A DNA stretch of 36,835 bases from Chloroflexota bacterium. GTDB taxonomy: Bacteria; Chloroflexota; Anaerolineae; Ardenticatenales; JAADHH01. The translations under genes were made by a program, and so were the position numbers. Below, piece by piece: positions 25,571 through 29,742 of this stretch (the first letter of the stretch is position 1; every line of letters starts with the position of its first letter). The notes under the pieces are model-generated. The model was not told the DNA's origin. It saw nothing but the letters and a program-made list of their open reading frames with translations, and ran no database searches. The DNA is taken from the NCBI GenBank assembly GCA_013151955.1, contig JAADHH010000047.1, positions 1 through 36,835 of the forward strand, in the 5' to 3' direction.

Positions 25571-26203
25571 TCACGGGGCGCTCGTCGCTGACGGCGTGGC
25601 GATGGCTTCTGGTGTGGCGGTTTGCGTGACGGCCGGCGTTGCGGTGAACGTCGGCGTGGGCGTTGGTTTGCGCGGTGGCTTGGTAATCAGCCGGCGTAGG
25701 TCGTCAATCAGGCTGCTGGTTACCAGGTAGATCGCCGGGTTGTCATTTTGCTGCACGTAGTAGGAAAATCCTTGCGGGTTTTTGTCCCCAACCTGTAGGG
25801 TTTGGGTTTGGTTCTCGGTCAGGCCGATATCCACGGTCATTGTATGGGTGACGAGTCCGAAGGGGGCGAGGTCGGCCGGCGGGTTGGTGATCACCCGGCT
25901 GGCCGTGATCTTCGCCAAGCGGCTCGTCAGGCTGTTCAACCGTGTGGCGTCGGCTGTATCTGTGATGGGGGCTTCGATTTGCCACGTCCCGCCGGAATCT
26001 TTCACCAGCCGGGCCTCCTGCTTCGTTTGCAGGTCGTGTACTTCGAGGCGATTGATGTGGTCGGCGGGAAGGCTCCACAATGTGGAGACGCTGGGTGTCG
26101 GGGTCGCGGATGGCGTTTGCCCGCTGCCCATTTCGCCAAAGTAAACGTATGCTCCCAAAGCGATGAGCACAACCACCAGGATGATCGTGTTTCTTGTGTT
26201 CAT
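25571..26203 (-). CDS. DUF4340-like protein of the ABC operon
   Basis: N-terminal TM then WSLPADHINRLEVHDLQTKQEARLVKDSGGTWQIEAPI...QTLQVGDKNPQGFSYYVQQNDNPAIYLV. Confidence 0.85.
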   Translation of the reverse strand: MNTRNTIILVVVLIALGAYVYFGEMGSGQTPSATPTPSVSTLWSLPADHINRLEVHDLQTKQEARLVKDSGGTWQIEAPITDTADATRLNSLTSRLAKITASRVITNPPADLAPFGLVTHTMTVDIGLTENQTQTLQVGDKNPQGFSYYVQQNDNPAIYLVTSSLIDDLRRLITKPPRKPTPTPTFTATPAVTQTATPEAIATPSATSAP

Positions 26204-26213
26204 TATTCCCTCC

Positions 26214-27782
26214 TCAACGCCGTCGCCACCAGATAACCCCGCCCAGGATCAGCACCAGGGTCGGAATGAGGATCGTGGTCACAACGAAAATGAAGTTGCT
26301 CTGCGGGCGGGTGAGGATGAGCGAATGTTGTGCGGGAGGCTTCGGACGGATGGAGATCAGCGTTTCCTCCTCGCTCAGCCAGTTGATGGCGTTCAGGAAC
26401 AGGTCGGTATTTCCAAACGCTCCGCGCACAGACTGCAACACACCATTTGAAACGAAGTCGGAATCGCCGATGACGATCAATCTCGCTTTGGGGGCCTGTG
26501 TTTTCCCGTTGGTCGCGGGTGCGTTGCTGCCTCCCTTTTCGATGACGGCAGCGATTGTGAGGGGTCCCTTGGTGTCTTTTCCGTTGTCGAACCTGACTTT
26601 CTGGTTTTGGAAGTCGGTCTCTCCCCAACTGTCCGGTGATGTCTGGATCAGTGGGGTGACGAGCACGTCGGCGGGTTTGTCCGCCGGCAGGTTGAGCGAA
26701 CGGGCCAGGGGGAAGAAGCTGGTAAGGCCACCCATGTCTTTGGTGATCTGGTGGAATGGGTAATGAGAGACGAGCGGCGAGCCGACATCTCCGAAGAAAG
26801 AGCTCGAGGGGTCAATCACGGCGTCATTGCGAAAGGCGACCCCATACTTGGTCAGAAGGTCTCCCAACGGGTCGGGAAGTTTGGGGTCGGACATGACCAA
26901 CAGGTTTCCCCCCTTGTCCACGTAATCTGTCAGCCGTTGCAACTCTTCGTTCACCAGGGGGAGTTGCGGGGCCGCCAGCACAACCACGGCAGCATCGCTG
27001 GGCACGGTGTTGGTCACGGCCAGATTGAGCGATTTGACCGTATAGTTGTCTTTCTGCAAAAGGCCGCTGATCTGGCTGTAGCCGCCTTGGGCGCTCGATT
27101 TAGGGTCTCGTTCTTGATGGCCGGTGACGAAATAGACGACCGGGCTCTGGTCTCGCGAGACTTTGATGATGGCGCTGGTGAAGTCTTGTTCTTGCAGGCC
27201 AAAGATGTTCTGTTTCTTGTCGCCGCGCTGGAAGACCAACGTCCCATAACTGGTGATCTGGAACTGGCGAGCCAGGGCCGGTTTCAAGTCCGGGTCTACG
27301 AACTCGTAGGTAAATTTGTCGGTGCGGGCGGCATATTCCTTGAGCAGGTCTTCGGCGTCTTGCCGGCGATTGTTTGTTTGTTGGAAGAAGGCCGTCACAT
27401 GAATCGGCGCTTTCAGGTTGGCCAGCACCTGCGTTGTTTGCGCGGAGAGGGAGAACTTCTTTTCGGCTGTCAGGTCGATCCGTTTGGCGTGTCGTACGCC
27501 CAGGAAGTTCAGCAAGGCGATGATACCCAGAAAGGCCACCGACATGATGACGGCGTTCGACCCGTAGCGCGCCTGGCGACCGGTGACTGCTGCGCGTACG
27601 GTGGCCGGATTGGTGAGCACGGCCAGGCCGATGAGAGCGGCCCCGATGACCAGCGGAGCTTCGGCGCGCATGTTGAACTGGCCGGTGATGACCCAGATGA
27701 GCAACCCCACGACGAGGAGCGCCACCCCTCCCAGGCCGAGGGAAAGGCTTGCCTTTTTGACGTTTTCGTACAGTCTGTTCAC
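26214..27782 (-). CDS. GldG-family ABC transporter auxiliary protein
   Basis: KRIDLTAEKKFSLSAQTTQVLANLKAPIHVTAFFQ...EYAARTDKFTYEFVDPDLKP; N- and C-terminal TMs. GTG start at 27782 is preferred to the longer track ORF. Confidence 0.9.
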   Translation of the reverse strand: MNRLYENVKKASLSLGLGGVALLVVGLLIWVITGQFNMRAEAPLVIGAALIGLAVLTNPATVRAAVTGRQARYGSNAVIMSVAFLGIIALLNFLGVRHAKRIDLTAEKKFSLSAQTTQVLANLKAPIHVTAFFQQTNNRRQDAEDLLKEYAARTDKFTYEFVDPDLKPALARQFQITSYGTLVFQRGDKKQNIFGLQEQDFTSAIIKVSRDQSPVVYFVTGHQERDPKSSAQGGYSQISGLLQKDNYTVKSLNLAVTNTVPSDAAVVVLAAPQLPLVNEELQRLTDYVDKGGNLLVMSDPKLPDPLGDLLTKYGVAFRNDAVIDPSSSFFGDVGSPLVSHYPFHQITKDMGGLTSFFPLARSLNLPADKPADVLVTPLIQTSPDSWGETDFQNQKVRFDNGKDTKGPLTIAAVIEKGGSNAPATNGKTQAPKARLIVIGDSDFVSNGVLQSVRGAFGNTDLFLNAINWLSEEETLISIRPKPPAQHSLILTRPQSNFIFVVTTILIPTLVLILGGVIWWRRR

Positions 27783-27798
27783 GACGAAACCTCCACGA

Positions 27799-28509
27799 TT
27801 AGCTCCACCGTCTGCTTTCCAAAGAGCGCACAGACAGGAAGAGGAATGCAACAACAAGGCTCAGGTAATAGATCACATCTTTGGTGTCTATCACACCCCG
27901 TGTCAGGTCCGATGTGTGACTGGAAAGGGAGAGATAGCTGAGTATACTGCTGAGACTCCCCCCCATGAAACTCCCCGCAGCATCGGCCAGCCAGAGGACG
28001 AGCAGCAAAACGATGCCCAAAACGGCGGCCACGATTTGGTTGCGGCTCAGAGAAGAGGTGAATACTCCGACCGAAAGGTAGCCGGCGCCGGCCAGGATCA
28101 GCCCCAAATAGCCCGAAAGGATCGGCCCGCCGTCTGGATGGCCGAAAGCGAACAGTACCAGCGGGTAAACAAGGGTCAGGGAAATCATGGCCAGGAACAG
28201 GGTCAGGCTGGCCAGGAACTTGCCCAAAACGACTTCCCAATCTCGCACCGGCGAAGTGAGCAGCAGCTCGATGGTTCCGGAGCGGTGCTCTTCTGCCAGC
28301 AGGCGCATGGTGAGCATGGGGGCAATGAGCAGAAAGATGAAACTCAAGTTACCAAAGATAAAACGCATAGTGGCTTCGCGGGAAAAGTACAGGATCATAG
28401 AGAACAGGTAACCCCCGATGACCAGAAAAGCGGCCGTGACAATGTAGGCGATGGGGGAAACGAAGTAGGCATAGATTTCCCGTTGGGCGATGGTGAATGT
28501 ATTGCGCAT
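27799..28509 (-). CDS. ABC-2 type transporter permease, GldF-like
   Basis: MRNTFTIAQREIYAYFVSPIAYIVTAAFLVIGGYLFS...EEHRSGTIELLLTSPVRDWEVVLGKFLAS. Confidence 0.93.
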   Translation of the reverse strand: MRNTFTIAQREIYAYFVSPIAYIVTAAFLVIGGYLFSMILYFSREATMRFIFGNLSFIFLLIAPMLTMRLLAEEHRSGTIELLLTSPVRDWEVVLGKFLASLTLFLAMISLTLVYPLVLFAFGHPDGGPILSGYLGLILAGAGYLSVGVFTSSLSRNQIVAAVLGIVLLLVLWLADAAGSFMGGSLSSILSYLSLSSHTSDLTRGVIDTKDVIYYLSLVVAFLFLSVRSLESRRWS

Positions 28510-28615: not shown

Positions 28616-29563
28616 CTACGCTGCGTCTTCGTCTTCATCTTCATTTGTGTCTTCTTCAGCGGTGAGTTGCAGGAAGACATCTTCCAGGCTGGCCCCGAGC
28701 GCGCGCATTTCCAGGAGGCCCCAGCCGTTTTGTACGGCCGCGGCAGCGATCTCCGGCCGGCAATCGGTTGCGCTGTCACAGGTGATTTCGAAGCCGTTGT
28801 CCCCGGCCGGCTCTACCGATGTTACGCCCCCGATGTTACCGAGCAGTGCCGGCGTCTCTTCGGCCGGTTGCTGGAGCTTTAGGAGGACCCGTTCTGCGCC
28901 CTCGGCGCGGGCGCTGAGGCGCTCCGGCGAATCGACTGCGACCAGGTGTCCTTTGTTGATGATGATCACGCGGTTGCAGATTTGGCTGACTTCGGGGAGG
29001 ATGTGGGTGCTGAGGATCACGGTGTGCTCTTTTCCCAGCTCCTTGATCAGGCCGCGAACTTCGATGATCTGTTTGGGGTCCAGCCCGATGGTCGGTTCGT
29101 CGAGGACTAACACATCGGGGTTGTGGATCAGTGCCTGGGCCAGTCCGACGCGCTGGCGGTACCCTTTGGAGAGTTGGCCGATCAGTTGGTCGGCGCGATC
29201 CTCGATCCAGCACGTGTCCATGACATCCCAAACGTGGTCCTCGCGGTCATCCACGCCACGAAGTTTGGCCACAAAATCGAGGTAGGCATAGACCGTCATC
29301 TCGGGATAGAGGGGGACCGTTTCGGGCAAGTACCCGACATGGCGGCGCGCCTCCAGCGATTGTGAGAATACGTCGTAGCCGGCGATCTTCACGGTGCCGT
29401 CGCTGGGGGGCATGAAACCGGTGAGGATGCGCATGGTGGTCGTTTTCCCTGCACCGTTCGGGCCGAGGAAGCCCAGCACCTCACCCTTCTCGACATGGAA
29501 GTTCAAATCCTCGATAGCTGTGAAGTCTCCGTAGTACTTGGTTAGGTTTGATACTTCGATCAT
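28616..29563 (-). CDS. ABC transporter ATP-binding protein, GldA/CcmA-like
   Basis: GFLGPNGAGKTTTMRIL Walker A, LSKGYRQRVGLAQALIHNPDVLVLDEPTIGLDP signature and Walker B; acidic C-terminal tail. Confidence 0.96.
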   Translation of the reverse strand: MIEVSNLTKYYGDFTAIEDLNFHVEKGEVLGFLGPNGAGKTTTMRILTGFMPPSDGTVKIAGYDVFSQSLEARRHVGYLPETVPLYPEMTVYAYLDFVAKLRGVDDREDHVWDVMDTCWIEDRADQLIGQLSKGYRQRVGLAQALIHNPDVLVLDEPTIGLDPKQIIEVRGLIKELGKEHTVILSTHILPEVSQICNRVIIINKGHLVAVDSPERLSARAEGAERVLLKLQQPAEETPALLGNIGGVTSVEPAGDNGFEITCDSATDCRPEIAAAAVQNGWGLLEMRALGASLEDVFLQLTAEEDTNEDEDEDAA

Positions 29564-29592
29564 AGTTCACCACCCTATCGAATTGCAACAAG

Positions 29593-29658
29593 AAAAAAAT
29601 CTCGCAAATCGGGCTCTGCTGGTTGCAACGGAGCAGAGTCCGGCCCAATTTGAGAGAT
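29593..29658 (-). terminator. Intrinsic terminator-like hairpin inside the 5' leader of the ABC operon (candidate attenuator)
   Basis: Minus strand ATCTCTCAAATTGGG-CCGGA-CTCTGCT-loop-AGCAGAG-CCCGATTTGCGAGAT followed by TTTTTT; the ABC ATPase starts at 29563. Confidence 0.7.
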
Positions 29659-29713
29659 ATAGATTGCTTCGCTCCTCTTGGTGGACAGAAACCTTCTGCC
29701 CTAATTACGGGAC

Positions 29714-29742
29714 ATTTTACCACAACGGAATGTGCTTGTCAA
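29714..29742 (-). promoter_or_regulatory. Sigma70-like promoter for the ABC operon
   Basis: Minus strand TTGACA, 17-bp spacer, TAAAAT. Confidence 0.75.

Follow-up and report, generated by a model that had tools for sequence, protein, structure and literature searches.

The leader of a GldA/F/G-type ABC transporter operon in an Ardenticatenales bacterium carries a transcriptional stop signal that is real, and the layout in which it stands is recurrent and specific to this operon. Many relatives have such a stop at the corresponding position of this operon, which makes its control by early transcription termination probable. From the comparisons below we judge it reasonably probable that an operon-specific leader terminator, that is, an attenuator, serves many Anaerolineae as a regulatory or throttling device. 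The first-pass annotation of this DNA had proposed a candidate attenuator with an upstream sensor; the attenuator reading is likely, being backed by a strong terminator that recurs at this operon in Anaerolineae, but the sensor part found no support. We regard the element as a previously unrecorded case of a known kind of leader attenuator; our search found no literature that treats attenuation in Anaerolineae or the regulation of GldG/DUF4340-type operons. Operons of the GldA/F/G ABC type are widespread, and a leader terminator that comes back at a single operon in many families offers a handle on the stimuli to which the transporter responds.

A promoter and a terminator hairpin precede the ABC operon

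We analysed a window of 36,835 nt (contig JAADHH010000047.1 of assembly GCA_013151955.1; Chloroflexota, Anaerolineae, Ardenticatenales, JAADHH01). The named best relatives of the genome likewise point to Anaerolineae. On its minus strand an apparent operon encodes a GldA-like ABC ATPase (28616-29563, with the ATG at 29563), a GldF-like ABC-2 permease (27799-28509), a GldG-like (ABC_transp_aux) protein (26214-27857) and, as final gene, a DUF4340 protein (25571-26203). The GldA, GldF and GldG models all match under their own NCBIfam cut-offs. Upstream lies a sigma-70 promoter with an extended -10 element (29742-29714, minus strand; TTGACA-17-TAAAAT, 11 of 12 consensus positions), with the -35 hexamer at 29742-29737, the -10 hexamer at 29719-29714 and a TG ending the 17-nt spacer. 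The strong promoter annotated about 145 nt before the start codon is thus borne out, the distance from the end of the -10 hexamer to the ATG being 150 nt.

Within this leader, a hairpin at 29657-29600 (minus strand) is built of 5 bp, a 1x1 mismatch, 10 bp, a 5-nt bulge and an apical stem of 6-7 bp, and is followed immediately on its 3' side by a run of seven T (29599-29593). Hairpin and T-run lie about 36 nt 5' of the operon ATG, and a T-run 3' of the stem is present on the minus strand only. The hairpin has a folding energy of -27.1 kcal/mol (z -4.4), which none of 200 shuffles equalled. Its terminator score d, a form of that of d'Aubenton Carafa et al., is +24.1, and 40 dinucleotide shuffles of the stretch from promoter to ATG gave at best -13.8. 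A stable, G+C-containing hairpin with a U-run directly after it, as in intrinsic terminators, is therefore present, and the bulged, terminator-like structure described at first stands. A consensus terminator scan of the window did not pick up the hairpin, because that scan permits short loops only and no bulge.

The neighbouring UbiA family gene upstream of the leader is on the plus strand and divergent from the ABC operon, so that the hairpin is not the terminator of the upstream unit, and this possibility was ruled out. As had been annotated, the hairpin comes before the gene and not after it: the terminator follows the promoter and precedes the first operon gene, rather than standing behind an upstream gene, and this is the position of an attenuator. 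The leader also holds a small hairpin, GGGCAGAA-GGU-UUCUGUCC (29701-29683, minus strand), originally noted as CAGAA-GGT-TTCTG; it is genuine, with a stem that reaches 8 bp, and DNA homologue searches of its own genome and 397 genomes of the class gave no sign of its conservation. The leader as a whole had only chance-level short matches in the same genomes. A stretch of it, GAGCGAAGCAATCT, looks like common REP-like palindromes, yet it is unique in the window's genome and was rejected as an interspersed repeat; REP-like palindromes are present in leaders L020 and L060.

The layout recurs before orthologous operons in Anaerolineae

Orthologues were found at E<=1e-100 in 115 of the 397 class genomes, and upstream regions were read for about a hundred of them. 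A consensus promoter, a short leader, a terminator hairpin, a Shine-Dalgarno sequence (SD) and an ATG recur in this order, and of 105 orthologue leaders 23% have a hairpin with d>0, the figure being 0.8% for shuffles and 2.9% for the reverse strand. The arrangement is conserved in the family f29 (d>0 in 18 of 22 leaders, 0.12 expected) and in some other families, and many families are without it. All 23 f29 leaders that were read have a promoter of the form TTGA(C/A)N-17/18-TATAGT and then a hairpin (L184 is a weak case), which in most of them is GGCAC...GTG(C/T)C with TTTTGTTT; most also have a T-run directly 3' of the stem. The pattern GGCACN{8,24}GTGYCTTTTNTTT had 17 matches in 24 f29 genomes, 16 of them in this leader, and its reversed control had 0. 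The basal stem GGCAC/GTGCC is nearly invariant, which may reflect a general terminator preference; the inner stem varies in sequence and keeps its pairing, arm swaps between species being as low in mean energy in 142 of 10,000 permutations. The f29 hairpins start 2-22 nt past the likely transcription start, and as terminators they are middling in strength, their T-tract being interrupted. At the f29 locus L027 the upstream gene is divergent as well.

Beyond f29, leader terminators of differing sequence are found. In families f8, f11, f7, f35, f37, f54, f60 and f36, a hairpin resembling GAGCAC...GTGCTC, with a more or less T-rich tail, comes after the promoter. Among the 16 promoter-bearing leaders outside f29, the window included, three have d>0 (0.03 expected) and six have d>-10 (0.10 expected), and most non-f29 orthologues have a leader that does not score as a terminator. 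The promoters of terminator-bearing leaders are close to consensus. Orthologues outside Chloroflexota showed no clear excess of leader terminators. A generic AGCAC...GTGCT pattern was discarded as evidence, its matches being ordinary terminators and 0 of them lying at an orthologue. On a tree of the ATPase, leaders with the strict terminator label group together (9 changes, against a mean of 19.4 after shuffling): there is a large clade around f29, and other cases, such as the window, stand apart from it. The nearest orthologues of the window are without a leader terminator. The arrangement of stem and T-run recurs at orthologous operons; the window's own hairpin has no sequence homologue in the genomes searched. 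Two individual leaders differ in layout: L160 has two terminator-like hairpins in succession between promoter and ATG, GGGCCGCC...GGCGGCTCTTT and GAGCACAC...GTGTGCTC, and L203 has a palindromic insert of about 90 nt between leader terminator and ATG when compared with its near relative L196.

Leader terminators are rare within single genomes

As a control we sampled 427 kb of the same assembly, the window included, for genes separated by 80 nt or more from a divergent neighbour (n=76). Leader terminators with d>0 precede two of these genes, this operon and L254. The latter match sits behind an apparent tRNA gene and so is no true leader terminator, leaving that of the ABC operon as the only one in the sample. 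Across 800 kb sampled from a single f29 genome, a promoter with a d>0 leader terminator was found at only 2 of 122 divergent genes. In the f29 genome G213, a leader terminator at L352:6295-6330, GCGGTGAAC...GTTCACCGC followed by TTTT, stands behind a promoter about 66 nt 5' of a gene reading like dTDP-glucose 4,6-dehydratase (rmlB), and is a candidate second attenuator.

Possible mechanisms and alternative explanations

We infer from the sequence both that termination takes place in vivo and that it is conditional. The strong promoter would fire, and polymerase would meet an intrinsic terminator about 110 nt past the likely transcription start. Many polymerases would halt at the T-run, with a default stop near 29593 and release of a short RNA, and the GldA/F/G-DUF4340 operon would be transcribed only by polymerases that pass the terminator. 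Relief would most likely come through a trans-acting factor or an altered, regulated termination efficiency and not through a leader aptamer or competing antiterminator; beside these two routes, a fixed throttle is the one other mechanism left.

The sensor in the original proposal was a segment of about 50 nt ahead of the terminator, and an RNA switch would have this segment sense a ligand and pair with the 5' arm of the terminator as antiterminator. Such pairing exists in the window (-23.5 kcal/mol) and is seen transiently at 75 nt in stepwise folding, but dinucleotide shuffles show it to be no better than chance (p=0.10). With values of 0.15-0.96 in ten further leaders, antiterminator pairing was significant in 0 of 11 leaders. 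An Rfam scan, as suggested with the annotation, returned no riboswitch or T-box match for the window leader or 20 relatives, in agreement with the first impression that no such motif was recognisable. The segment has no homologue in the 397 class genomes by which covariation could be seen, and f29 leaders have no such segment: with the hairpin starting 2-22 nt past the likely start, there is no room for an aptamer. Nor does the window leader contain a leader peptide, a short ORF whose SD and start codon would lie ahead of the terminator 5' arm or overlap it; in f29, an ATG lies 5' of the hairpin in 3 of 23 leaders and an SD with a start codon in 0 of 23. The riboswitch-like sensor reading is therefore weak, and we consider the RNA switch improbable.

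A constitutive throttle, by which a fixed fraction of polymerases passes and a transporter that is costly in abundance is kept low with no signal, would fit a terminator that recurs, leaders in which no relieving element was found, and the middling strength and interrupted T-tracts in f29. A weaker promoter would suffice for this purpose, however, and the near-consensus promoters of terminator-bearing leaders make the throttle rather unlikely, if less so than the RNA switch. The pairing of promoter and terminator is also the typical look of a small RNA gene, here of about 110 nt and in f29 of about 50 nt, which would act in trans and for which read-through into the operon would be secondary; dual roles as small RNA and leader have been reported elsewhere (PMC11394854). 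Such an RNA would, in f29, consist almost entirely of the terminator hairpin, the f29 pattern is nearly confined to the leader of this operon, and inspection by eye revealed no second promoter between T-run and ATG, all of which make this very unlikely. Hairpins at the 5' end can protect mRNAs, and the hairpin in the window, with a sequence that is not conserved, might be a 5' stabiliser, a pausing structure or a chance fold that does not terminate. We give this the least credence, for here, as in most f29 leaders, the stem runs straight into a T-run, with scores that far exceed those of shuffles.

Comparison with known systems

The attenuator that we favour shares with the trp/pyr-type, T-box and transcriptional riboswitch attenuators a strong promoter, a short leader and an intrinsic terminator before the first gene. 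Unlike in those systems, no aptamer, specifier loop, leader peptide or antiterminator was found, and f29 leaders have no room for them. A short leader terminator that depends on a protein, as with TRAP, PyrR and LicT/BglG, would fit f29, but we found neither a RAT-like hairpin that overlaps the terminator nor a candidate protein. Lacking space for a sensor, the f29 version would allow attenuation by a trans-acting factor to be tested cleanly. Processive antitermination by LoaP and RfaH, which are NusG paralogues, resembles the present case in that a small leader hairpin would suffice and the targets are envelope or export operons. A NusG paralogue does not, however, accompany the element wherever it occurs. 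One NusG match each was found in G033 (one contig, 99% complete, f29, element present) and G178, and NusG paralogues are present also in genomes without the leader element. The element can do without a NusG paralogue, as the case of the single-contig G033 shows. The sole NusG match of the window's genome (G000:C116:6144-6419) scores 6.4e-20, compared with about 1e-30 in relatives, and this incomplete assembly may lack the standard NusG. Promoter-proximal 3' ends mapped by Term-seq and 3'-end mapping, for instance in E. coli (PMC7815308), share with it early termination in the 5' UTR as a widespread means of regulation; unlike our case, the papers found concern other organisms and genes, and omit this operon and class.

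A direct-repeat box precedes many terminator-less orthologues

Direct repeats of the form TTAATCT-N4-TTAATCT stand before the ATPase gene in many orthologues that lack the terminator. They lie 60-170 nt before the ATPase start with an 11-bp period (L009, L013, L025, L055, L063, L168 and others). The exact form YTAATCT-N4-YTAATCT had seven copies in 19 genomes, six of them at this operon; the seventh, L258 (G113:C22:11201-11218), is before a gene reading like a membrane-anchored PDZ protein. In f29 the repeats are reversed in orientation and upstream of the -35 hexamer, and the window has no such box within 2 mismatches. The repeats look like a site for an OmpR/PhoB-type regulator that would be dedicated to this operon. 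A mutual exclusion of the forward box and the leader terminator (0 leaders with both, of 26 and 31) was not significant given relatedness and was not retained. It is conceivable, though doubtful, that single-operon attenuation extends across Anaerolineae and that the bare f29 terminator, passed only with an RNA- or polymerase-binding factor, would replace the control of initiation that the direct repeats (OmpR/PhoB-type) would provide in other families.

Two further promoters in the window

Two other promoter sequences were noted in the window. On the plus strand, 34848-34876 matches the sigma-70 consensus at 12 of 12 positions (TTGACA-17-TATAAT), and its -10 hexamer ends 7 nt 5' of the ATG of the longest ORF (34883), which is either leaderless or has its start codon later. 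On the minus strand, a promoter at 31323-31295 (11 of 12 positions, with TG before the -10 hexamer) has no evident long minus-strand gene directly 3' of it before the plus-strand UbiA gene is reached, and possibly serves a small RNA.
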